Source: a virus. From it: DNA of 64,000 nucleotides. A program made the position numbers and the translations under genes. A model generated the notes under the pieces. It was not told the DNA's origin. It was given only the letters and a program-made list of their open reading frames with translations, and did no database searches. The stretch is taken from the IMG/VR virus record IMGVR_UViG_3300020195_000020, positions 1-64,000 of that record; one strand, written 5' to 3'. Position 1 is the stretch's first letter. Each line of letters opens with the position of its first letter. Below, piece by piece: positions 1 through 61,089 of this stretch.

Positions 1-137
1 CCCCGGGCAGTCACGCCCGATAGTAGGACCTGGCGGGCCGTGCGACGTGCACGGCTTGCGCCCGATCGTGGGCCAGCACAATGGCGGGCCCACGATCGGG
101 CGCCCCCTGGCGACGTCGCCAGGGGACCCCGCGGCCA
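1..137 (-). repeat. Hairpin-rich leader repeat, copy 1
   Basis: About 135 bases that recur, roughly 90% identical, at 1156-1290. The copy contains a 16-bp inverted repeat (59-74 with 87-102) and a perfect 22-bp palindrome (104-125), plus smaller stems. It lies just 3' of the DUF932 gene on the minus strand and so probably precedes another minus-strand gene beyond the left window edge, as copy 2 precedes the DUF932 gene. Confidence 0.85.
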
Positions 138-13364: not shown

Positions 13365-14330
13365 ATGAGTTTTGATCGCTACGGAATCTATGCGGCTCGG
13401 ATTGGCGACATCCTGCTGCGCGACCTGTCGGACATAAGCTGGCGCTCGGCGAGCAAAAAGTCGGTCGTGATTCCTGGCGGCGACGTCCACCCGCGGGCGA
13501 TTGTCAACTGCTGCGCCGACCCGGTCATGGACTTCTCGACCAAAGCCCTCGACGCGCTCTTCGCCGGGGCCGCCACCGTCGACCCCTGGATCGGCTACGC
13601 CGTCAACACGGCCGGCTCGCCTAGCACCCCCTCGGCCCTGCTGCAATTTCAGAAACGGGTGGACGGCTCGACCTTCGCCAGCGGCGCGAATCACATCGTG
13701 GGCACCAACACCAAGGGGTTCCTGAACCCGGTCAGTATCTCGGCCCAGCAGGACGACGAGGCCGGCGTTAAGTGCATGCTGTCCTACTCGATTCTGTCGA
13801 CCGACGGCATGACACCGCCGATGACATGGAGCAACGCGGCGGCCCTGACCAGCGTGCCCAACTTCGACGGCATCTGGTTCCTGGGCCCGGCGACGATTGG
13901 CGTCGTCGGCAGTGCGGGAATCTTCCTGGGCAGTCTGCAAAGCATGGAGCTCCGCTTCGGCATCAATTACCGCTCGCCGCGCGGCGATGGCAACGTCTAT
14001 CCGGTCAACGGCTCGGTGCACTCGGTCGTGCCGGAGATCCGCTTCACGCTCTTGAACTTCCAGACGGACGTGTTTGCCATGGCTTATCCCTGGGGCTCGG
14101 CTTACTCCCAGGTCGGCGAGTGCGCCTTCCAGTTTTACCTGCAAAAGGGCGTGCATGGCGGGGCCCGAGTGTCCAGCGACGTCGCCGAGCATATCGCGAT
14201 CATCACGCACACGGGTGAGCGGACGCCCGAGACGTGCTCAGTGCGCGAGATTGACGACGCCCAGGTCGAAATCGTCCTGCGGCCGACCGGTGGCATCTTC
14301 ATCGCGGTGCAACAGACGATCTCGTTCTAG
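13365..14330 (+). CDS. Candidate major tail tube protein
   Basis: A 321-residue beta-rich protein with AAGGAGTG ribosome binding sequence before the ATG. Motifs such as the ISAQQDDEAGVKC and ICTxTQxMELRFG-type strands (SLQSMELRFGINYRS) alternate with Gly/Ser turns, as expected for a tail-tube barrel. It lies two genes upstream of the frameshifted chaperone gene and of the tape measure, where the tube gene is normally found. The neighbouring 439-residue protein is the other candidate for the tube. Confidence 0.5.
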   Translation: MSFDRYGIYAARIGDILLRDLSDISWRSASKKSVVIPGGDVHPRAIVNCCADPVMDFSTKALDALFAGAATVDPWIGYAVNTAGSPSTPSALLQFQKRVDGSTFASGANHIVGTNTKGFLNPVSISAQQDDEAGVKCMLSYSILSTDGMTPPMTWSNAAALTSVPNFDGIWFLGPATIGVVGSAGIFLGSLQSMELRFGINYRSPRGDGNVYPVNGSVHSVVPEIRFTLLNFQTDVFAMAYPWGSAYSQVGECAFQFYLQKGVHGGARVSSDVAEHIAIITHTGERTPETCSVREIDDAQVEIVLRPTGGIFIAVQQTISF

Positions 14331-14380
14331 CGTTCGGGGGTCGGTTTCCTCTTTACCAGCTTTCATCACGCGGGGTCGCC

Positions 14381-15700
14381 ATGGCTCTCAATTACACGAC
14401 GCTGTTCACCAATCGGATCGGCAACGGGTTCTACCTGCTGAACCTGTGCAATGAATTCCGTGGGGCCGCCGGCAGCGGTGCGATCGCCACTGATCTGGTC
14501 ACCGAATGGCAGGCGTTCGTCACGACCTACGACGGTGAGAACGCGCTGCTGCGCGCGGCCCTGGGCGATTCAACTGGCAGGCTCACGACGGCTTTGGGCG
14601 GCCTGGACGACATGACGAGTTGGATCGCGACGTCGCTATCGAACACGATCATCGAAATGATCGACGCCCAGAATCAGCTCTCCAAGAAGGAGATCAGCGA
14701 GGCCATGCAGGGACTGATCGACTTCATGGTCGCGGACGGTAAGACGGTCGACGCCAACGCCGTGACCGCCGCGGCCACTGCCGGCACCAACTCGGGCACC
14801 GGCACGATCGTGTTGAGCACGAAGGACGCCAACGGCAAGACGCTCGAGTATTGCTACGACGAGACGATCGACGTCACGTTTACGACCACGACCCAGGCGA
14901 AGTTTGTCGGCGAGGCCCGAGCCAAGAGCCTGCTCAGTTACCAGTTCCCGCTCGGGAGTGGCGCCTCGAAGAGCCTGACGCCGGCCGACGCGGCCAGCAC
15001 CAGCGGCATCCTGACCAATGGCACATTGGACGCGATTGTCGCCAACACGCCCACCGGCTGGACGATCATCAACGGCACCGCCGGCACGAATATCCTGGAA
15101 GAGGCGTCGGTTGTCTTCAAGGCCGGCAAGGCCGTAAAGTTCGTCGGCAACGGCTCGGCCACCCCAGGCATCACGCAGACCATTACCGGGCTCAAGAGTC
15201 GGACGCCCTATGCGGTCAATTTCTGGGGCAAAGTCGACTCGACCCCGGCCGCCGGCGTGATCACGGTCGATCTGTACGACGGCTCCGGCATCATCAACGA
15301 CGAGGCCGGGAATGCCAACTCGTTCACGGTCGACTTGACCGCGATCGGCACCAGCTATGTGCCCAAGGGCGGATTCTTCCGCCTGCCCGAACCGGTGCCG
15401 TCGACCGTGACCCTGCGGATCCGCGAGAGCACGGCCCTGTCGAACACCAAGAACTTCTATCTGGACCACGTCCAGATGATCGCCGGCACCCAGCTCTACT
15501 CTGGCGGACCGTATGCCGCCGCGTTTGTCGGATCGGTCGCATTCAGCACCGACGACACGTTTTCGGTGGCCGTCACGAACGACTATGGCGGCGCGGTGCA
15601 GACGCTGTTCTGGCGCTGCTTTGACATGCCCACCAAGGGGCTGGTCCTGCCGAGCAACGCCGCCGGCAGCGAGAACATTCTGGACTCGATTATCGCGTAA
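14381..15700 (+). CDS. Tail structural protein with carbohydrate-binding-like domain
   Basis: A 439-residue protein. Residues 1-130 are helical; residues 205-370 resemble a CBM4/9-type jelly roll seen in phage tail proteins (WTIINGTAGTNILEEA, then GITQTITGLKSRTPYAVNFW, ending with LDHVQMIAGTQ). The final 70 residues are another beta segment. It lies directly before the tail assembly chaperone. Roles as a tail tube with decorative domain or a tail accessory protein are both possible. Confidence 0.6.
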   Translation: MALNYTTLFTNRIGNGFYLLNLCNEFRGAAGSGAIATDLVTEWQAFVTTYDGENALLRAALGDSTGRLTTALGGLDDMTSWIATSLSNTIIEMIDAQNQLSKKEISEAMQGLIDFMVADGKTVDANAVTAAATAGTNSGTGTIVLSTKDANGKTLEYCYDETIDVTFTTTTQAKFVGEARAKSLLSYQFPLGSGASKSLTPADAASTSGILTNGTLDAIVANTPTGWTIINGTAGTNILEEASVVFKAGKAVKFVGNGSATPGITQTITGLKSRTPYAVNFWGKVDSTPAAGVITVDLYDGSGIINDEAGNANSFTVDLTAIGTSYVPKGGFFRLPEPVPSTVTLRIRESTALSNTKNFYLDHVQMIAGTQLYSGGPYAAAFVGSVAFSTDDTFSVAVTNDYGGAVQTLFWRCFDMPTKGLVLPSNAAGSENILDSIIA

Positions 15701-26636: not shown

Positions 26637-26865
26637 ACTCGCAGCCGCAGACCTGACAGCGGTTCAGGTAGGTCGACGGGGCGACGCGGATCGAGGATGC
26701 CTCGCAGTATGGGCACGGCTTGCGAGAGAATTCCGGAACCGACGCGATGACGGGAGCGGACTTGGCCGCTGGCTCATCGCCCGGCAAACGAACGAACAGC
26801 ATCGCCGCCATCACGATTGCCGCGAAGGCTCCAACGATCCAGATTAGGGCCGCGCCAGGGTTCAT
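26620..26865 (-). CDS. Membrane-anchored zinc-ribbon protein
   Basis: An 81-residue protein: a single N-terminal membrane helix (about residues 5-25, ALIWIVGAFAAIVMAAMLFV), a short linker and a zinc ribbon (CPYC then CQVCGC). The start at 26865 overlaps the stop of the prepilin-like gene (ATGA), so the two are translationally coupled and probably act together at the membrane. No family name can be given. Confidence 0.65.
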   Translation of the reverse strand: MNPGAALIWIVGAFAAIVMAAMLFVRLPGDEPAAKSAPVIASVPEFSRKPCPYCEASSIRVAPSTYLNRCQVCGCEFRSAD

Positions 26866-28037
26866 GGGATGTCGGTTTCGCTTGGTATGACTGTTGACCA
26901 TGGCGGGCCGCAGAGAGCCGGCATCCCGCTTTGACCAGCGTACATGGTTTCCGTCCCGTGACTCGACATGAGGATCGCGTAGATCGAGTACCTGATGTCC
27001 TCGCCGATAAACCTTACCGAGCCATCGGCATAGGCCACATTGAACCCGCCTGGATGGTTGCTCGCCGGCCGGGCGAACCACCACGCTTTAATATCGGCCG
27101 CAGTGACGGCACCAACTGCCGGCGGCAATATCGGCATGCGGTTGACTTGAATCGGCGGAAGATCAGGGCCAGCAGGGGGAACGCCCCAGAGCGCTCCCAG
27201 ACGCCACTCTTCGTCGCCGTAGTTGCGCCAGGTCATGTTCCAGTTTACCGTCACCGGGATGCCCAGCGTCTCGCCAATCTCGGCGCCGCGATTCTCAGCG
27301 AGCATGATCGTCCGGCTCACGCCATCCTGCCTGGTGAGCGTCGCCGGGTCCATTTTGACGAACGGCTTCTTGTTGCCCGCGGAGCCCGCGTATGCCTGAT
27401 TAAAGCAGAGCCCGTTCGCGGGCCAGTCGAGCGGGATTGATTGCGCGTTGTCCACGTCGGCCATCCCGGCGTTCGGGAAGTAGTTCATGGCCGGGCCTTG
27501 CAGCGTGGTTACGGAATCGCTGGGGCACAGCAGGACTTCGATCGGTCGGTTCGGCAGATTGCCCGTCATGCGATACTGCGTATAGATGTCGTTGCGCTCC
27601 ATATAAGGCAGCAGAGCCGGCACCCAACCAACGTACCCAGGTGTCGGCACGCCGGTCGGATTTTCACGGGCGTAGACCAACCCAGGAAAGTAGTCCTTGC
27701 TGGTGCAGACCTGGATCATCGCCATCGCGGTCTGCCGGATATTGTTCGTGCAGGTCGCGCGCCGGCCGGCCTCGCGGGCTCGTTGCACGGCCGGAATCAA
27801 CAGGCCCATCAGCATGGCGATAATGGCGATCACAACCAGCAACTCGACGAGGGTGAAGGCGCGCCGTTTCATTTTGTTACCTTGAATTGAAGTGCATGCC
27901 CGGCGAAGCGTTGCTCGCACCCAATTCGAGAGGTCCATGCCGGACTTCTCGGCTTCGGCAAGAAACGCTTGCTTCTCTTCCTTGGTCAGGCGCAGCTCGC
28001 AGCGTGCGGTGCGCTCAGGTCGAATCGTTGTGGCCAT
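26862..28037 (-). CDS. RHH domain fused to DUF1559 prepilin-like protein
   Basis: Read from the ATG at 28037 this is 391 residues. Residues 1-55 look like a ribbon-helix-helix DNA-binding domain (CELRLTKEEKQAF, then SGMDLSNWVRATLRRA). After residue 55 comes a type IV prepilin N-terminus (RRAFTLVELLVVIAIIAML) and a full DUF1559 domain ending with the H-X9-DG signature (NHPGGFNVAYADG). There is no stop between the parts. An internal ATG at 27872 with a modest AAGG site would make the 336-residue prepilin alone. DUF1559 proteins are a planctomycete hallmark; their role is unclear but they are presumed pseudopilin-like surface proteins. Confidence 0.85.
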   Translation of the reverse strand: MATTIRPERTARCELRLTKEEKQAFLAEAEKSGMDLSNWVRATLRRACTSIQGNKMKRRAFTLVELLVVIAIIAMLMGLLIPAVQRAREAGRRATCTNNIRQTAMAMIQVCTSKDYFPGLVYARENPTGVPTPGYVGWVPALLPYMERNDIYTQYRMTGNLPNRPIEVLLCPSDSVTTLQGPAMNYFPNAGMADVDNAQSIPLDWPANGLCFNQAYAGSAGNKKPFVKMDPATLTRQDGVSRTIMLAENRGAEIGETLGIPVTVNWNMTWRNYGDEEWRLGALWGVPPAGPDLPPIQVNRMPILPPAVGAVTAADIKAWWFARPASNHPGGFNVAYADGSVRFIGEDIRYSIYAILMSSHGTETMYAGQSGMPALCGPPWSTVIPSETDIP

Positions 28038-28044
28038 GCCGTAC

Positions 28045-28073
28045 AGTGTACGTACGACGCGAACTTGATACAA
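28045..28073 (-). promoter_or_regulatory. Putative promoter with GTACA operator at the RHH gene start
   Basis: On the minus strand TTGTAT (28068-28073), a 17-base spacer and TACACT (28045-28050) form a plausible promoter whose start would fall at or next to the ATG at 28037, implying a nearly leaderless mRNA. The -10 is embedded in a palindrome GTACAGTGTAC (28041-28051) that is followed by GTACGTAC (28048-28055). RHH proteins commonly autoregulate by binding such short repeats; this is inference. Confidence 0.4.
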
Positions 28074-31355: not shown

Positions 31356-31538
31356 ATGCTGGTTCTATCCAGGAAAAAGAACGAATCGATCGTGATCAAT
31401 AGCGACATCACGATCACGGTCGTCGAAATCCGCGGTGACAAGGTCCGCCTCGGCATCGAGGCACCCAAGGACATTCCCGTTCACCGCCGCGAAGTGAAGG
31501 ACGCGATCGATCGCGAGATCGCCGCCCACAAAACGTAA
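31356..31538 (+). CDS. csrA: Carbon storage regulator CsrA
   Basis: A 60-residue RNA-binding translational regulator with the complete CsrA sequence pattern: MLVLSRKKNESIVI, the central VRLGIEAPKDIPVHRREV and the conserved residues L4, R6 and R44 needed for binding GGA motifs in mRNA leaders. AAGGAG precedes the ATG at 31356. Being phage-encoded, it may reprogramme translation of host or phage mRNAs. Several genes in this window have hairpins next to their Shine-Dalgarno sequences, which are typical CsrA target features. Confidence 0.93.
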   Translation: MLVLSRKKNESIVINSDITITVVEIRGDKVRLGIEAPKDIPVHRREVKDAIDREIAAHKT

Positions 31539-52759: not shown

Positions 52760-52996
52760 ATGGCGCGCCGGCAAACCGTCTGGTTCTGGCTGGCCCTGAT
52801 CGCCCTGGCCGCCGTCGCCGGCTGGGCGAGCAACCGACCCGAGCGGCCCACGCTCTGGACCTGGTCGACCCCGGTGCACGTCCGCGAGTTGCACGGCGCC
52901 CTGCTGGAATCCGAGCCCAAGGTGACCAATGCGATCGCCAGGCTCGGCGCCGACCACCGCTACGAGCTGGAACTGAGCCTGCGGAGAACCCGGTAA
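52760..52996 (+). CDS. Small membrane protein
   Basis: A 78-residue protein with an N-terminal membrane helix (TVWFWLALIALAAVAGWAS, residues 6-24) and a soluble C-terminal part. An upstream in-frame ATG at 52712, overlapping the previous gene and with AAGAAGG before it, is an alternative start giving 94 residues. Confidence 0.55.
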   Translation: MARRQTVWFWLALIALAAVAGWASNRPERPTLWTWSTPVHVRELHGALLESEPKVTNAIARLGADHRYELELSLRRTR

Positions 52997-53119
52997 ATGT
53001 TCACCTTCACGAATTTGATGTTTTACACCGCGGGAGTGGCCTCGGGCATCGGCCTGTCGGTTGGCGTCTGGAAATTGATCGACTCCATCCTCAACAACTG
53101 GCAGGGCCCCGGCTCATGA
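52997..53119 (+). CDS. 40-residue membrane peptide
   Basis: Starts immediately after the previous stop (TAAATG). A single membrane helix (YTAGVASGIGLSVGVWKLI) makes up most of it. It overlaps the thioredoxin gene by ATGA, so it may help anchor or export its neighbours. Confidence 0.55.
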   Translation: MFTFTNLMFYTAGVASGIGLSVGVWKLIDSILNNWQGPGS

Positions 53120-53490
53120 CGCGCACACGAACCTACCGCTGGCTGGCCATGGCGCTGGCACTGACCGCCGGCTACCTGGTGGCGCTGGCACTACCGGAGC
53201 CCGTGCAAGCCGAGCCGGTCGTGATCGAGTTCTCGGCCCCCTGGTGCGAATTCTGCCAGGCCGCCAAGAAAGACGTGGCGGGGCTCCAGAAAGAGGGTTT
53301 CGACATCCGCATCGTCAACGTCGACGACGAGCCCAAGCGGGTGGACGAGTACCGCATCAAGACCATTCCCGCGTTTGTGGTGGTCGAGACCACAACCGCT
53401 AAGGAGCTCGAGCGACGCGTCGGGAAGACCGACGGCGCGCAATTGCGGGCCCTGATGACCAAGCACGCCATGAAACCGAAGGCCAAATGA
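53116..53490 (+). CDS. Exported thioredoxin-fold protein
   Basis: A 124-residue protein with a Sec signal (about residues 1-32, cleavage after VQA) and a thioredoxin fold: active site WCEFC (Cys44, Cys47) and cis-proline in TIPAF (Pro85). After export it would act on disulphides in the periplasm. WCEFC is not the usual WCGPC, suggesting a specialised partner. Four-base overlaps couple it to both neighbours. Confidence 0.85.
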   Translation: MTRTRTYRWLAMALALTAGYLVALALPEPVQAEPVVIEFSAPWCEFCQAAKKDVAGLQKEGFDIRIVNVDDEPKRVDEYRIKTIPAFVVVETTTAKELERRVGKTDGAQLRALMTKHAMKPKAK

Positions 53491-53699
53491 TGTTCATCAT
53501 CCTGGATGAAGAGACCCAGTTGCCGATCACGCACCGCGAATTCGATTGCAGCAACCCGCGATCGATCGCGATGTTCGCCAACGAAGATCTGGCCGAGGGG
53601 GCGCTCCGCGAGACGATCAACCGCCATAGCCGCCAGCTCAAGGTCATGAGCTGGATCGACTGGATGGAAAAAGCCGGGCACGCCAAATCGCAAGCATGA
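53487..53699 (+). CDS. Small hypothetical protein
   Basis: A 70-residue protein between thioredoxin and the Tat-signal protein, coupled to both by four-base overlaps. N-terminal strand MMFIILDEETQLPITHREF, then helices. Not recognised. Confidence 0.6.
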   Translation: MMFIILDEETQLPITHREFDCSNPRSIAMFANEDLAEGALRETINRHSRQLKVMSWIDWMEKAGHAKSQA

Positions 53700-54106
53700 A
53701 CCAATCGACCGACACCCGCCGTGGTTTCCTGGGTCGCACGCTCGCAGCGGCCGCGGCAGTGGTCTGCGCCCCGCTGGTGCGGTTTGCCCCGGCGGCTTCG
53801 AAGCCATGGAGCGCTGCGGCGGTCGATCACGCCGCCGCTTTGGCCGATTCTCCTCATTGCCGCATTGTGGTTCGGACGTTCCAGGGCAGGGTCAAAAGCA
53901 TCGCCGGCGAGCGGGCGCAATTGGTGGCCGAGGATCCGATCACCGGCGAGGTCACAGAGATCGACGCATTGCTCTGGATGGCCCTGGTGCCAAGCGTGGG
54001 CGATGGGGCCATCGCCATCTGGGATCCCACTGTCTCGGACTGGTTTGTGGTCTTGCAAATCTGGACCAAACCGCCCGTCGCCTACCTCGACCCGGTCAAA
54101 TCATGA
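53696..54106 (+). CDS. Tat-exported protein
   Basis: A 136-residue protein with a twin-arginine signal (TRRGFLGRTLAAAAAVV, residues 7-23, Ala-rich core). Tat export implies that it is folded or cofactor-bound before transport. The mature part is a small beta-rich domain (RIVVRTFQGRVKSIAGERA) of unknown family. It is sandwiched between thioredoxin and subtilisin genes with overlapping starts, so it may be their substrate or partner. Confidence 0.7.
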   Translation: MNQSTDTRRGFLGRTLAAAAAVVCAPLVRFAPAASKPWSAAAVDHAAALADSPHCRIVVRTFQGRVKSIAGERAQLVAEDPITGEVTEIDALLWMALVPSVGDGAIAIWDPTVSDWFVVLQIWTKPPVAYLDPVKS

Positions 54107-55155
54107 CTCTCTTCCAACTGCCGCCGTACCACATGAAGGTCGTGATGAGCGCCGCCCAGGTTGGGCAGGCGATCGACTGGGGCATCACGTATTTGAAGGC
54201 CCTCGAGATTCACAAGACGACCAAGGGCGCCGGCATCAACGTGGCCGTGCTCGACACCGGCATCGACATGAGCCACCCCGATTTTCAGGGGGCGATCGTC
54301 GCGGCGCAGGACTTCACCGGCAGCGTGCACGGCGTGATGGACGCGAACGGTCACGGCACGCACACCGCCGGCACGATCGGGGCCCGCGACAACGGCGTCG
54401 GCAGCGTCGGCATGGCGCCCGAGTGTGGCCTGATCATCTGCAAAGTGCTGGGGGACGATGGCGCTGGCGACGACGAAATGATCGCCGCCGGCATCCGCTG
54501 GGCGGTGACCATGGGCGCCCAGATTCTGAGTATGTCGTTTGAGTCGCCCAGCCCCTCGCCCGTGATCCGCGCGGCGATCGACGACGCGGTGCAAAAAGGC
54601 CGGTTGGTGGTCTGCGCGGCAGGCAACCGCGGCATCGCCGGCAACGGTTATCCGGCCGCCTGGGATGACGTCTGCCAGAGTATCGCGGCCAACGATCAGA
54701 AGGGGCGGATCGCCGACTTCTCGGGCGTGGGCCCGCAGGTCGACGTCTGCGCGCCGGGCGTGCACATCCTGAGTTGCTGGCCTGGCGGCAGCTACGCCTA
54801 TCTCGACGGCACCAGCATGGCCTGCCCGCACGTGTCGGGCGGTCTGGCTCTGGTGGCCGCCTATCGCCGCGCGAAGGCCCTGCCGCAGATCGCCAGCCAG
54901 GCCGAGCTGAACAATGCCCTGCATGCGACGGCCATCGCGCTGGAGCCGACGCCGCCGCCAAATCAGCGGTGGGGCTATGGCGTGTTCAATCCCACCGCCC
55001 TGCTGGACTACGCCACGGCGCCGCCCAATGCTCCGCCCGCCGCCGCGCCGCGCAAGGCCCGCCGCTGGGCGATTCCTTTCCTGTATGGCTACCAGGACTG
55101 TGAATGGGCGATCACCGCCAACCCGATCGTCAAACCCGCGGCCCCGGCCGCTTGA
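54103..55155 (+). CDS. Subtilisin-like serine protease (S8)
   Basis: A 350-residue protease with an intact catalytic triad: Asp51 (VLDTGID), His84 (NGHGTHTAG) and Ser238 (GTSMACPH), plus the oxyanion Asn175 (AAGN). No signal peptide and only a short N-terminal extension, as in intracellular subtilisins. The C-terminus (300-350) is Pro/Ala-rich. Phages rarely encode subtilisins; the adjacent export and redox genes suggest processing of a neighbouring protein or the host envelope. Start coupled to the Tat gene. Confidence 0.9.
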   Translation: MTLFQLPPYHMKVVMSAAQVGQAIDWGITYLKALEIHKTTKGAGINVAVLDTGIDMSHPDFQGAIVAAQDFTGSVHGVMDANGHGTHTAGTIGARDNGVGSVGMAPECGLIICKVLGDDGAGDDEMIAAGIRWAVTMGAQILSMSFESPSPSPVIRAAIDDAVQKGRLVVCAAGNRGIAGNGYPAAWDDVCQSIAANDQKGRIADFSGVGPQVDVCAPGVHILSCWPGGSYAYLDGTSMACPHVSGGLALVAAYRRAKALPQIASQAELNNALHATAIALEPTPPPNQRWGYGVFNPTALLDYATAPPNAPPAAAPRKARRWAIPFLYGYQDCEWAITANPIVKPAAPAA

Positions 55156-55191
55156 TTCGTTGTTTCGTTATCCCGTAACTGGAGAACCGTT

Positions 55192-55647
55192 ATGAAGTTT
55201 GCTCAAGCGTCCGCGAAAGCGGCCCTGTTCGACCGCTGGAAGAATCGTCCGCTGCCCGACCCGAATCGCCCGCGCCCCGTGCTCGATGCGATCAAAGGCG
55301 CGTTGACCGAGCTGGTCAAGAATGGCGCCTCGACCATGATGCCGATGCTGCTGCAGCTCGCCCAGAAATACCTGAGCGGTCTGAGCACGCCCTCGAGCGC
55401 CGAGGCCTCGCTGCATGCGGACACGCTGGAAATGCTCGGCGAAGAGATCGCCAAGCACGGCAGCAGCGCCGCGAGCACCAGCGCGGATTGGGTTTGGCTC
55501 GGTCCCTGGCTGGAAGCTGGACTCAAGCAAGCCGGTCCGGTCGTGATTATGGACCTGCTCATGCTCTTGAATCTGACCGGTGCGCCGACCACGGCCGCCG
55601 AAGCTGGCGCGGACCCCGCGGCCGAAGCCAGCAGCGCGGCCGACTAG
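55192..55647 (+). CDS. Hypothetical helical protein
   Basis: A 151-residue protein, CTGGAG upstream. Two hydrophobic segments, near residues 48-62 and 113-127 (GPVVIMDLLMLLNLTG), could associate with the membrane; the rest is Ala-rich helix. Not recognised. Confidence 0.6.
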   Translation: MKFAQASAKAALFDRWKNRPLPDPNRPRPVLDAIKGALTELVKNGASTMMPMLLQLAQKYLSGLSTPSSAEASLHADTLEMLGEEIAKHGSSAASTSADWVWLGPWLEAGLKQAGPVVIMDLLMLLNLTGAPTTAAEAGADPAAEASSAAD

Positions 55648-55710
55648 TCGGCCAGCAACAACAACGCTAACGCTTCGACTTCGCAGGGACGCATGGCGGA
55701 GGCGTGACGG

Positions 55711-55944
55711 ATGGACAGATACACGGTGCAGGCGGCGCTCGAGGAAGCAACTGACGCCCAAGGGGTGTCCGAGGACATACGACAGTTCACGGACCAGGCC
55801 CTGTTGGGCGAAATGCTTCGCCGGCGCCGCCTGCATCTGGCGGGGCGAACCAGCAAAGTCAACGAGCAACAGCTCTTAGACCACTGGCGAGACCTGCTGG
55901 AGGGAGTAACCGAACCGTCCAGTCTGCAAGGAACCGTACCATGA
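55711..55944 (+). CDS. Small hypothetical protein
   Basis: A 77-residue helical protein with CGGAGG eight bases before the ATG. Its stop overlaps the cytochrome peroxidase start (ATGA), so it is translationally coupled to it. Not recognised. Confidence 0.6.
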   Translation: MDRYTVQAALEEATDAQGVSEDIRQFTDQALLGEMLRRRRLHLAGRTSKVNEQQLLDHWRDLLEGVTEPSSLQGTVP

Positions 55945-57113
55945 AAACATTCTCGAAAACTCTGCTCGTCGCGCTGTGCCTTTGCACCTATTTGATTTCG
56001 GGGAGCGCCGGCGCCGACGAGCGAGTATTGCTCGCCCAGAAAAACGACGAGCAAGTTTCTCAGCCGCAGCCCAAGATCTCGCCGCAGCAGCGGGCACTGG
56101 TGACCTTGGGCGAAGCGCTCTACTTCGACACCCGAGTGTCGAGCGACAACACCACGAGCTGCAGCAGTTGCCATAGCCCTGAGCACGGGTTTGGCGATGG
56201 CCGCGACCTGGCCGTCGGTCGCATTGGCAGCCCCGAGAGCAACGGCCGCCGAGGTTTCGTCGGCACCCGCCGGACGCAACCGAACCTGAACACAATGCTG
56301 CGCGAGTACCTGAAAGACGAGCGAATGTTTTGGGACCTGCGCGCGGCTAACTCCGTTGCCCAAGCCACGATGCCGATCGAGAACCCGATCGAAATGGGGA
56401 ACCAGACTGTCGGCCAGGTCGCCGCCCGCCTGAACCAACTGCAGGGCTACCGGGATATGACCCGGGCAGCCTTCGGCGCCGACGAGCTCACGCCGCGGCG
56501 GATGGCCGAGGCTCTGGTGGCCTACCAGCGGACCGAGATTGTGGCAGTCGACACGCCGCTCAACCGCTATTACCAGGGCAAGGAAGATGCCGTCAGCGAG
56601 CAGGGCAAGCGGGGCGCGGCGCTGTTCAAGACCCACTGCATTTCTTGCCACTCGCCGCCGCTGTTCACCACGGGCGAGGCCTTCAACACCGGGATGGAGG
56701 ATCGCTTTAGCCGGCAACTCACCGCCGAAGCGGCCGCGCGCGGGGAGATTCGCCGCGAAGATCTTGGCCTGGAGCGGACGACCAAGAACCCCAACGACCG
56801 CCGCAAGTTCAAGACGCCCGGCATCATCGGACTGACTGCTCGCCGGCCGCCGTTGAACCTCAACCATCACGGCCAGATTCACTCAGTGCGCGACCAGATT
56901 GTGCACTATGCCGCCGCGGGCAACTATCGCCTGGGCGGCAACACTCAGACCTACCGCGACCCGTCGATCGACCCGCGGGTCGCCAAGATCAAGCTCGCTG
57001 ACAACCCTGCCGCGCTGGAACAGGCCATCTTGGACCTGGAGCACACCGTGCTCGTGGACCTGATGCCTGACGATTATCCAACTGGCGTTCGACGCCCGGA
57101 GCGGCTCCCCTGA
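55941..57113 (+). CDS. Di-haem cytochrome c peroxidase (MauG/CcpA type)
   Basis: A 390-residue exported protein with a signal sequence (residues 1-25) and two c-type haem motifs, CSSCH (74-78) and CISCH (233-237), as in bacterial di-haem peroxidases. The KFKTPGIIGLTARRPPL segment corresponds to the conserved region beyond the second haem. It would reduce hydrogen peroxide, or like MauG oxidise a protein partner. This is very unusual cargo for a phage; haem attachment would need the host cytochrome c maturation system. It overlaps the next gene by one base. Confidence 0.92.
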   Translation: MKTFSKTLLVALCLCTYLISGSAGADERVLLAQKNDEQVSQPQPKISPQQRALVTLGEALYFDTRVSSDNTTSCSSCHSPEHGFGDGRDLAVGRIGSPESNGRRGFVGTRRTQPNLNTMLREYLKDERMFWDLRAANSVAQATMPIENPIEMGNQTVGQVAARLNQLQGYRDMTRAAFGADELTPRRMAEALVAYQRTEIVAVDTPLNRYYQGKEDAVSEQGKRGAALFKTHCISCHSPPLFTTGEAFNTGMEDRFSRQLTAEAAARGEIRREDLGLERTTKNPNDRRKFKTPGIIGLTARRPPLNLNHHGQIHSVRDQIVHYAAAGNYRLGGNTQTYRDPSIDPRVAKIKLADNPAALEQAILDLEHTVLVDLMPDDYPTGVRRPERLP

Positions 57114-58249
57114 TGTTTCGCTCACTGTTTGCCACGCTGATACTCGCGGCCCTGCTGGTGCCAGGCGAGCCCCTGCCGCATATCGCGGCCGATTCTGTCA
57201 AACCAGCTTTACAAAACCGCCCGGAGCCTGCGCAGTTTGCGTTACAGGACCAGGATGACCTGGCCGCCGACATCGCCCAACGCCTTACCGAGAAGTTCTC
57301 GACTGCGTGGGACCTGGCTGGCTGGGAAGTTGCGGCGATTGACGTGCCGCCAGAGGCCACCGGCGCCACGCCGCAAGCCAGGAAACTGTTCGCCAAAATG
57401 CGAGCCGCGGTGGCCGCCGACGGTCCGCCGACCGCACCGGTAGACGATGACCTGCCCCCGGCACCGCCGCCGCCGGCCCCGCCTCCACCAGCCGACGCGG
57501 CGCCGAAGTCCGAGCCCGCGAAACCGGACCCGCCGAAGCCTGAGACTCCCAAGCCGGAGCCAGAGCCCAAGAAGCCCGAGACCAAGAAGCCGGCCGACCC
57601 GCCGGTAGTTCGCATCCGGATCAACGGCGAAGACGCCCGCGACAACACGGCCACGGTCGACCTGGGAAAGCTGGTCGAGATTGAATTCTCAGAGTCTGGC
57701 GGCCCGGTGCGCGAACGGTCGATCACGATCGGCCCCAAACTCGACACTACGCACATGCGCAAGCTCGATACGACGCACGTCATTCTGGCGGCGCCGCCGG
57801 GCATTTACGACGTGCGCGTGATCGCGATCGGCACCGAGCGGGGCTTCTCAGAGCACCGGATCAAGCTGGTCATTCGCGACCCGCGTGCTGCCGAAATGGC
57901 AGAGCAAGCTAAGGCCCAGGCTGCCGCGGCCAGCCAACCCAAGACGCCGTCCGACCCGTTTGCCGAACTGCGCAAGCTGGCCGCCGGCATCGAGTCGCCC
58001 AACCGCTCGATCGAGGCCGCCGAGGTGGCCAAGGCCTTTGCCAGCCGCACCTCACTGGCCGACTCGATTGGTGCCGCGCGACTCGCCCTGATTGGAATCG
58101 GCGCGAACGCAACCAACTGGCAACCGTTCTTTGCGGGTGCCGAGCGAATCTTCGGCGACGTCCGCACGGAGCTGCGGACCGCTGGCAAGACTGTTGACGA
58201 GGGCAGGTTTCTCAAGGAGCTGGCCAAGATGCTGGGCGAAACGCCCTGA
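57113..58249 (+). CDS. Secreted protein with Pro-rich linker
   Basis: A 378-residue exported protein (signal about residues 1-18). Residues 105-165 are a Pro/Glu/Lys linker (PKPETPKPEPEPKKPETKKP); the middle (165-260) looks like a beta-sandwich (VVRIRINGEDARDNTATVDL) and the C-terminus is helical. One-base overlap (TGATG) with the peroxidase gene implies joint expression. Not recognised; could tether the peroxidase or contact the envelope. Confidence 0.6.
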   Translation: MFRSLFATLILAALLVPGEPLPHIAADSVKPALQNRPEPAQFALQDQDDLAADIAQRLTEKFSTAWDLAGWEVAAIDVPPEATGATPQARKLFAKMRAAVAADGPPTAPVDDDLPPAPPPPAPPPPADAAPKSEPAKPDPPKPETPKPEPEPKKPETKKPADPPVVRIRINGEDARDNTATVDLGKLVEIEFSESGGPVRERSITIGPKLDTTHMRKLDTTHVILAAPPGIYDVRVIAIGTERGFSEHRIKLVIRDPRAAEMAEQAKAQAAAASQPKTPSDPFAELRKLAAGIESPNRSIEAAEVAKAFASRTSLADSIGAARLALIGIGANATNWQPFFAGAERIFGDVRTELRTAGKTVDEGRFLKELAKMLGETP

Positions 58250-58265
58250 CAGTAAGCGTATTCAC

Positions 58266-58286
58266 GGGGCAGAAGAATGCCCCTTT
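58266..58286 (+). terminator. Terminator-like hairpin before the Cys/Gly-rich gene
   Basis: GGGGCA pairs with TGCCCC around a GAAGAA loop, followed by TTT. 25 bases before the next ATG. Confidence 0.45.
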
Positions 58287-58310
58287 CCCTGTTCGCAAAG
58301 GAGGACTGCT

Positions 58311-58688
58311 ATGTTCCGAATTCTGAGCGTTGCGTGCGTCGCGTTGGCCCTGATGCTGATGGCCAACACGGCCGAAGCCGGTCGGCGCGGCGGTGGCGGT
58401 TGCTCGAGTGGCGGGTGCAGCACGGGCGGCGGCGGTTGCAATGTCGGTGGCAGCAGTGGCTGCAATATCGGCCAGAGCAACACGTCGGCCTCGCAGCGTG
58501 ATCTGCAGCAGTCGCCGGCGCTGTCGATTCCCGCTCCGGCCGTGACGGCCAAGAAGCGTGCCGACGCCGCGATCGCCCAGGCGAAGCGGACCCCCAAGTA
58601 CGACCTGGCCAAGTGCGAGAAGCTGGCCGGCGCTGTCGACGCGGTCGAGCCGACTGGTAGTCGTCTCGAGATGCTGGCCCAGCGGTAA
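58311..58688 (+). CDS. Secreted Cys/Gly-rich protein
   Basis: A 125-residue protein with AAAGGAGGA before the ATG. A Sec signal (residues 1-24, ending TAEA) is followed by an unusual Gly/Cys block (about residues 25-55) with four cysteine-containing repeats such as GGGGCSSGGCSTGGGGC and SSGCNIG, then a helical C-terminus with one further Cys. It resembles a secreted, disulphide-linked or modified peptide and lies in the same cluster as thioredoxin and a di-haem peroxidase. Function unknown. Confidence 0.65.
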   Translation: MFRILSVACVALALMLMANTAEAGRRGGGGCSSGGCSTGGGGCNVGGSSGCNIGQSNTSASQRDLQQSPALSIPAPAVTAKKRADAAIAQAKRTPKYDLAKCEKLAGAVDAVEPTGSRLEMLAQR

Positions 58689-58791
58689 GCGTGCTTTCCG
58701 GCGCGGGTTACCGCGTCTCTGAATCAACCCGAGCGGCTGACGGCCGCAGTGGAGCTTGCTTTTTTCAACCGCTTTTTGAGGAGGTGCTTTG

Positions 58792-59448
58792 ATGCGTTCG
58801 AACCGATTCTTTCCGATGATCCTGGCCGCTGCGGTGGCCATCGCCATGGTGGGAACTGCCGTTGCCCAGACCGCCAGCGCGACCGCCGGCAACGGCTTTG
58901 CGGCTTCGCAGGCGGGCCCGGCAACGCCGGCCCCGAGTGACGCGGCCAACCAGTTCGCGGCCCCCGCGGCCACGAGCTCTGCCACCACCACGACGGCCGT
59001 CGCTCCGGCGGCGACCACCACGATCGCCGTGGTCCCGGGGGTTGTTGCCAGCAATGGCTCCAGCCGATCGCGATCGCGGACCAAGACCACGACGACGACC
59101 TCGGTCCAGCCCAATGTGAGCACGGGCACGGTCGTAACTTCTCAGGCTACGGCGCTGGTGCCGCAGACTGTATTGGTGCCTCAGACTGTGATGGTGCCGG
59201 TGCAAACCGCCACGATCGCGGCCAACACCGTCGCGGCCAACACGGGTAGTAGTACCGTGACGAGCACCACAACGACCCGCACGAATAGCCGCGTGAGCCT
59301 GGCGGATCGCCTGGCGGCTATGAAGGCGAGTCGCGCGGCGTCGCGAAGTTCTACCGTTTCGAGCTCGACGTGCAGTACCAACTGCAACACGGGCGGGGCC
59401 CGCACTCGGAGCCGGTCGTCCAGCCGGTCGACGAGCCGCAGCTATTAG
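58792..59448 (+). CDS. Secreted Ala/Thr/Ser-rich protein
   Basis: A 218-residue protein with GAGGAGGTG before the ATG (a TTG one codon earlier is possible). Signal peptide about 1-25 (cleavage at VAQ). The mature part is low-complexity: Thr runs, repeats of VPQTV, and a Ser/Arg-rich C-terminus with SSSTCSTNC. Long unstructured secreted proteins of this type are known in planctomycete envelopes, but I recognise no family. Confidence 0.6.
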   Translation: MRSNRFFPMILAAAVAIAMVGTAVAQTASATAGNGFAASQAGPATPAPSDAANQFAAPAATSSATTTTAVAPAATTTIAVVPGVVASNGSSRSRSRTKTTTTTSVQPNVSTGTVVTSQATALVPQTVLVPQTVMVPVQTATIAANTVAANTGSSTVTSTTTTRTNSRVSLADRLAAMKASRAASRSSTVSSSTCSTNCNTGGARTRSRSSSRSTSRSY

Positions 59449-60741: not shown

Positions 60742-61089
60742 ATGATGGTCCGAGAGCCCCAAGGCGACCGCGTACGACTCACCATCCCAACGCAGCTCGC
60801 AATTGTAGGCCTGGCGCTGGCGATCATCGTTCCACTGGGCGGCGCTATGGCAACGGCTTGGAGCTGGACTTCGAACGTCGACGTCCGCTTTACGAAGCTG
60901 GAGATGACCGCGACGCAGGCCTCTGAGAACACCAAAAACACCAACGAAACCGTGAACAAGTCGATCCAGAAACTCGAGACCAGCGGCGAAAAAACCCACG
61001 AGCTATCCGAGAAAATCCAGCACGACCTGACCGATCTGAGCAAGCGCCTCCGCCGCATTGAAAAAGCGGCCGGCACTGCGCAGCCATAG
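60742..61089 (+). CDS. Membrane-anchored coiled-coil protein (holin-like?)
   Basis: A 115-residue protein: one N-terminal membrane helix (about 20-42, LAIVGLALAIIVPLGGAMAT) followed by a charged coiled coil (about 52-105). Topology is that of some phage holins or spanin-like proteins, but the order is the reverse of XhlA. A second ATG follows at 60745. No endolysin is recognised nearby, so a lysis role is a guess. Confidence 0.6.
   Translation: MMVREPQGDRVRLTIPTQLAIVGLALAIIVPLGGAMATAWSWTSNVDVRFTKLEMTATQASENTKNTNETVNKSIQKLETSGEKTHELSEKIQHDLTDLSKRLRRIEKAAGTAQP

Follow-up and report, generated by a model that had tools for sequence, protein, structure and literature searches.

A conserved cassette of protease, dihaem peroxidase and PKD-domain protein in planctomycete-infecting phages: a candidate host-exit module

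The window analysed here is the whole of a 64,000-base stretch of viral DNA, bases 1-64,000 of the 74,145-bp record IMGVR_UViG_3300020195_000020. Towards its right end, on the + strand, lies a cassette encoding, in order, a thioredoxin, a twin-arginine translocation (Tat) signal protein, a subtilisin, a small helical protein, a dihaem peroxidase, a PKD-domain protein and a Cys/Gly protein with a CxxGxC motif. A first-pass annotation, made from the letters alone, had taken these genes for an envelope redox and protein-processing cassette. All the genes that it named are present at their places; Pfam confirms the thioredoxin, the subtilase and the dihaem peroxidase, and the motifs are visible in the translations. 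Comparison with other phages strongly supports a conserved module made up of part of this set. The features are as follows (TM, transmembrane; CCP, cytochrome c peroxidase).

52760..52996, + strand: small protein, single TM segment at its N-terminus; candidate holin, not core
52997..53119, + strand: 40-residue peptide with one TM-like segment, overlapping the thioredoxin gene by 4 bp; speculative holin candidate
53116..53490, + strand: Sec-exported thioredoxin with WCEFC, cis-Pro kept (PF00085, E 1.9e-10); accessory
53487..53699, + strand: 70-residue cytosolic protein
53696..54106, + strand: Tat-signal protein (RRGFLGRT) of 136 residues, no family match; accessory
54103..55155, + strand: S8 subtilisin-like serine protease, apparently of intracellular type, occupying the "protease slot" (PF00082, 7.2e-47)
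55192..55647, + strand: small helical protein
55711..55944, + strand: 77-residue protein whose gene runs 4 bp into that of the peroxidase
55941..57113, + strand: Sec-exported dihaem peroxidase of the CCP/MauG superfamily (PF03150, 2.1e-38)
57113..58249, + strand: secreted PKD-domain protein with signal, Pro-rich linker, PKD-like sandwich and helical C-terminal domain (from family alignments)
58311..58688, + strand: secreted Cys/Gly protein, CxxGxC (CSSGGC)
58789..59448, + strand: secreted protein rich in Ala, Ser and Arg, its tail cationic (Ser/Arg)
60742..61089, + strand: one-TM and coiled-coil protein of spanin/holin-like topology (weak PHROG matches)

The genes had been described as joined by overlaps, which is true within 52997-55155 and 55711-58249 (1-4 bp); elsewhere, they are separated by gaps of 36-127 bp.

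Searching for the same gene set in other phages, the check that had been proposed for the cassette, yielded a core of protease slot, peroxidase and PKD-family protein in 11 other viral contigs, otherwise very dissimilar, and in one prophage in a planctomycete chromosome. Nine contigs were obtained with an alignment of dihaem peroxidases as the query against viral contigs, and the further three members are the window itself, L125, reached via its subtilisin, and L166, reached via a protein with a HELLE motif; scans of the viral contigs with single peroxidase or PKD sequences found no relatives, and the module appeared only with the alignment query. In all 12 phages, a protease or protease-like protein is encoded one to three genes upstream of the peroxidase and a secreted PKD-family protein downstream of it. 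A blastp comparison of 11 phages linked the peroxidase in 11/11, a count given by construction as the search ran mostly via the peroxidase; the PKD protein and the protease had no part in that search, and S8 proteases were shared by 8/11 and the PKD family by 9/11 in a single cluster, the window and L044 being linked separately, with the next most common gene at 4/11. A PKD-family neighbour is present at 12 of 14 viral peroxidase loci versus none of 22 bacterial ones (Fisher p = 7e-8), and neither a PKD nor an S8 relative was found at the 22 bacterial loci, some of which are short. Helical proteins of similar size to that of the window also stand directly upstream of the protease in other cassettes, a likeness judged by eye only.

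The membership first assigned to the cassette thus holds for the protease slot, the peroxidase and the CxxGxC protein and fails for two others. The thioredoxin was not found in the other 14 cassette records tested and, being private to the window phage among the 15, is ruled out as a core component; none of the ten other cassette phages compared encodes a relative of the Tat protein, one of them having an unrelated Tat-signal protein. The cassette of planctomycete contig G209 includes a secreted protein with a CPxC motif, and it is possible that cassettes take up an occasional thiol partner. Other candidates were set aside. Two viral contigs (L049 and L050) have a peroxidase without the cassette, and their enzymes fall among bacterial ones in the tree; the peroxidase matches in named phages are Salmonella/E. 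coli enzymes (~30%), two of them from bacterial contigs. The large terminase subunit (TerL) led only to two ~100% identical fragments, neither covering the cassette, and a TerL search of genome contigs gave no close relative of the window phage.

The protease slot is occupied in 12/12 phages, by unrelated families, and by an S8 enzyme in 8 of them. The window subtilisin, first described as active-looking, does have an intact Asp/His/Asn/Ser catalytic set, as far as sequence can tell, and is without a signal peptide. An N-terminal LPPY lies 41-43 residues ahead of its catalytic Asp motif, and LPP, or LPH in L042, is found at this latch position in all 8 S8-type cassettes. The LIPY/F peptide found at the corresponding place in intracellular subtilisins occludes the active site (PMC6220982), and the sequence relatives of the window enzyme in the PDB include intracellular subtilisins (2WV7, 2X8J, 6F9M and 7Y6M). 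With no signal peptide, a LIPY/F-like latch ~43 residues before the Asp and intact catalytic residues, it belongs by these motifs to the intracellular type, LPPY being its N-terminal latch.

The other occupants are of different kinds. The slot of L046 holds a matrixin (PF00413, 3.6e-21) with a PG_binding_1 domain (9.9e-05), and those of L044, L047 and L166 hold a protein with the invariant HELLE motif. This HELLE family spans 65 viral contigs (L165-L229), and sequence searches of Pfam, PHROGs and the PDB gave no match to it; its predicted model (pLDDT, the model's confidence score, 87) is closest mostly to archaemetzincins and matrix metalloproteinases, with Z of 7-7.6 where 8 is taken as clear, and the proteins carry HELLE, not the HExxH of the metzincin zinc motif HExxHxxGxxH, which makes a metzincin-like nature suggestive. 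In cassettes without a peroxidase (phages L052, L057 and L061; planctomycete contigs G209 and G336), a papain-like protease adjoins the PKD protein. At the motif level, these enzymes share Q..GDC/H/N.W, with Q100, C105, H262 and N287-x-W289 invariant in five sequences; the Gln oxyanion, Cys, His and Asn residues of papain-like C1 proteases are present in L052, L249 and L250, and a PDB sequence search with the papain-like cassette proteases gave no match. Because these peroxidase-less cassettes pair the PKD protein with a papain-like protease, the wider core would seem to be PKD protein plus protease, the peroxidase being an addition. The papain-like protease L249 (G209:C19, complement 13555-14772) has a TM segment at its N-terminus and, at its C-terminus, a GlyGly/TM/Arg tail like a sorting signal. 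A general link between phage S8 proteases and lysis is unsupported, as their neighbours are diverse. In L004 (9998-11994), an S8 gene shares one base with a gene that by eye looks amidase-like (APGHGGSDPGA), possibly a pairing of S8 protease and endolysin in another lineage.

The window peroxidase scores 132.7 bits against PF03150 (cut-off 25.6), which places it in the superfamily of bacterial CCP (bCCP) and MauG, and both CxxCH motifs are intact in it and in all aligned phage copies. It keeps the peroxidatic-site residues W131, Q141, P145 and E151. At the second-haem ligand site, located by alignment and not by structure, it reads PPLNLNHHG with neither Met nor Tyr aligned, and of the 10 phage copies aligned, just 3 have Met there. 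The high-potential haem of bCCP has Met/His ligation (PMC6405878); the window enzyme has neither this Met (APYMHDG in the classical bCCP) nor, at the aligned position, the Tyr that ligates the six-coordinate haem of MauG. With the donor-haem Met gone from most phage copies and no Tyr in its stead in the window phage, the enzyme appears to fit neither class. In the tree, twelve phage peroxidases form one clade (support 94/96) apart from the bacterial enzymes, with that of the window on a long branch. Literature searches turned up no paper describing a dihaem peroxidase in a phage, nor any describing lysis of planctomycetes by proteolysis.

Of the partners of the peroxidase, the PKD-family protein is the most constant. 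A model of the L041 member (pLDDT 81.5) has its best Foldseek matches in the PKD domains of AAVR and the collagenases ColG and ColH (E 3.6e-06 to 1e-4), as for a PKD beta-sandwich. Unlike those of the peroxidase cassettes, the PKD proteins of L249 (G209) and L250 (G336) begin, by eye, with a lipobox-like LAGC and could be outer-membrane lipoproteins resembling o-spanins. The secreted small CxxGxC protein follows the peroxidase in 7/11 cassettes, against 5/748 predicted proteins of these phages with the motif (some such small open reading frames lie outside the predicted set). This recurrence, together with a single peroxidase clade mostly lacking the Met of the classical enzymes, is what could be expected if a MauG-like peroxidase used H2O2 on the CxxGxC or PKD protein, then the real effector, with the protease processing or activating the partner. 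We nevertheless consider such oxidative maturation unlikely: the MauG-like Tyr ligand is missing, the CxxGxC proteins are low in Trp and Tyr, the thioredoxin is not conserved, amine-dehydrogenase genes were not found in the window phage and cassettes of PKD protein and protease exist without a peroxidase. The maturation system of MauG/MauD or quinohaemoprotein style first put forward for the window fares worse still; it fails because the thioredoxin is private among the 15 records and a dehydrogenase subunit was not found in Pfam scans of the window phage, and further, the Tat protein is not core and the subtilisin is of the cytosolic type. In a weaker form, the peroxidase may oxidise a conserved CxxGxC or PKD partner.

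Several lines connect the cassette with planctomycetes. An integrated prophage in the planctomycete genome G384 carries a complete cassette, and the region is syntenic with phage L040 (identity 86.5% for the peroxidase, 71.9% for S8 and 61% for PKD); the contig is 148 kb long, and its first 90 kb are, by eye, chromosomal genes (aspartokinase, RimO-like, copper ATPase). In the planctomycete contigs G209 and G336, the PKD and protease genes are directly upstream of those for the small terminase subunit and TerL; the G209 pair is 2-4 kb upstream of a terminase 28.6% identical to the window TerL over 549 residues, after which come relatives of other structural genes. The L046 cassette is followed by genes that look TerL-like and portal-like by eye. 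As the G384 prophage and the G209 locus are in planctomycete genomes, the host of the cassette group is Planctomycetota, and we infer a planctomycete host also for the window phage itself, helped by its gene for a DUF1559 (planctomycete pseudopilin) protein. DUF1559 was rejected as a host marker in the relatives, being present in 0/11 of them and only in the window phage. The gene (26862-28073, - strand) encodes a prepilin N-methylation motif and adjoins the integrase, and lysogenic conversion is a possible role.

No endolysin had been recognised in the window, and this extends to the rest of the record: nearly every predicted protein of the 74-kb phage was scanned with Pfam or PHROGs, and no peptidoglycan hydrolase, the mark of a phage lysis cassette, was found among the matches listed. 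Across the cassette records, none of the 15 searched for Amidase_2 had it, and Phage_lysozyme, SLT and M15_3 were each missing from all 16 searched (~1.2 Mb over the four-family searches), a result that speaks of recognised families and does not prove true absence. These absences, like the terminase-adjacent placement in relatives and the strict gene order with its swappable protease slot, would be unexpected of a moron serving lysogeny or the infection phase, in which the peroxidase detoxifies H2O2, the protease recycles or alters host proteins and neither has a part in exit. Dihaem peroxidases commonly scavenge H2O2, the peroxidatic-site residues are kept, and the window phage appears from its integrase gene to be temperate, as is at least one relative, the G384 prophage. 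The donor-haem Met, for its part, is mostly lost, and we regard the moron as improbable.

The explanation that we favour, at roughly even odds (about 0.5), is that the cassette genes form a conserved, modular system by which planctomycete-infecting phages leave the host, a lysis-type system. The argument is that a phage leaving a protein-walled cell may have to cut protein. Planctomycete walls contain Cys-rich YTV proteins (PMC8567305), and in Planctopirus limnophila, most peptidoglycan synthesis genes are dispensable (PMC10632474). An attack on the envelope in place of an endolysin had been among the first suggestions for the window; the comparative evidence favours it because the slot is always filled, by unrelated proteases, because common endolysin families are absent, because related proviruses have the cassette beside terminase genes and because the host is a planctomycete. 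What the data show is the conservation and the gene order, the intact catalytic residues, the lack of common endolysin families and the prophage in a planctomycete; that these genes serve lysis, and each step of the biochemistry, we infer. The main cutting would be done by a protease rather than a peptidoglycan hydrolase. The subtilisin would be made in the cytosol and kept inactive by its N-terminal LPPY latch until a small membrane protein breached the inner membrane and so released it; the small TM proteins are candidates for holin and spanin. Instead of the subtilisin, relatives would use a matrixin that binds peptidoglycan, a HELLE protein of metzincin-like kind or a papain-like protease. 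The secreted PKD protein might attach to the protein wall or loosen it, much as PKD domains do next to collagenases, or act in an outer-membrane step, and the secreted peroxidase and the small CxxGxC protein might alter the redox or cross-link state of Cys-rich wall proteins or of each other. A more specific version, in which peroxidase and CxxGxC protein undo or fix Cys cross-links, swappable proteases cut and a peptidoglycan hydrolase is absent, we hold only tentatively, as a possibility on the doubtful side.

Several points weigh against an exit module. Endolysins were sought as four families across all the phages and with the whole of Pfam in the window phage only, and for G408 and G409 the search reached as far as the matches listed. 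A peroxidase has no precedent in lysis. S8 proteases are found in hundreds of further viral contigs, most of which lack the cassette, and the S8 genes of Moorella and Bacillus phages are outside any recognisable lysis region; HELLE proteins, too, occur in cassette-free phages, in L192 followed by a lysozyme-like gene. Small TM proteins are present in the cassettes, and a convincing holin was not found among them. The TM and coiled-coil protein has weak spanin/holin PHROG matches in three cassettes, perhaps generic to coiled coils; that at 60742-61089 matches phrog_739 and phrog_89, "Rz-like spanin", with E 0.0024 and 0.0028, and unknown and coiled-coil families score better. Finally, there is a report of a planctomycete phage that exits its host without lysing it (PMC10945688). 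Such chronic release, or else entry or superinfection exclusion, could involve envelope remodelling by these genes short of terminal lysis, and several cassettes adjoin tail-fibre-like genes (the BNR-repeat protein at 61336-64329 beside the window cassette; G415). An intracellular, latched protease does not sit well with this, and the surrounding genes in G209 and G336 suit a place in lysis; we judge remodelling distinctly improbable.

Phages must break the cell and so reveal what holds it together, and the load-bearing component of the planctomycete wall has been an open question since the 1980s. If the host-exit reading is true, it would provide independent evidence that protein, not peptidoglycan, bears the load, a new lysis strategy, and genetic and enzymatic tools to open hard-to-lyse cells. 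It would also give a function to the phage CCP clade, the PKD partner, the HELLE family and the CxxGxC proteins, all nameless in databases.

The phage itself has genes for a GpA-type terminase, a lambda-type portal, an S49 protease and an integrase. Its record is probably complete, as both ends carry a 113-bp direct repeat (window 1-113; record 74033-74145). The repeat contains an inverted repeat, and the independent contig L012 begins 4 bases into it; the repeat may therefore mark where assembly broke off at a hairpin and not a packaging end. A CsrA gene is found at 31356-31538 and also in G407, G411, G416 and L166; in L166 it sits inside the cassette, flanked by the genes for the HELLE protein and the peroxidase. 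Another cassette phage, G408 (L131-L135), looks complete at 85 kb with a 127-bp terminal repeat; its domains include, among the matches listed, a Tet/JBP oxygenase, a Cas12f-like TNB/OrfB transposase, a sulfatase and an ADP-ribosyltransferase.

Of the known systems, phage lysis cassettes of holin, endolysin and spanins (PMC6139136) are similar in being compact, with small TM proteins, secreted envelope partners and a cytosolic or membrane-anchored hydrolase, and the terminase-adjacent position is matched in two relatives; here, however, proteases of unrelated families are found with no common peptidoglycan hydrolase family, and a dihaem peroxidase, a PKD protein and a CxxGxC protein are added. 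The window protease resembles intracellular subtilisins (ISP, MEROPS S8) in lacking a signal peptide and in its short LxPY latch and full catalytic set but is phage-borne, shares an operon with exported proteins and, with its relatives, has LPPY/W/D rather than LIPY/F. With the bCCP/MauG peroxidases (PF03150), the phage enzymes share two CxxCH motifs, a Gln/Glu peroxidatic pocket and Sec export; they differ in forming a phage-only clade, in the frequent loss of the second-haem Met, without a Tyr in its place in the window phage, and in sharing an operon with a protease and a PKD protein. MauG/MauD and quinohaemoprotein operons combine, as does the window, a dihaem enzyme, a thioredoxin-like protein and a subtilisin-like protease, but here the thioredoxin is not conserved, the protease is apparently cytosolic and a dehydrogenase substrate was not found in the window phage. 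The Clostridium collagenases ColG and ColH likewise pair a PKD fold with proteolysis of a protein matrix, whereas in the phages the PKD domain forms a separate secreted protein with a helical domain of its own.

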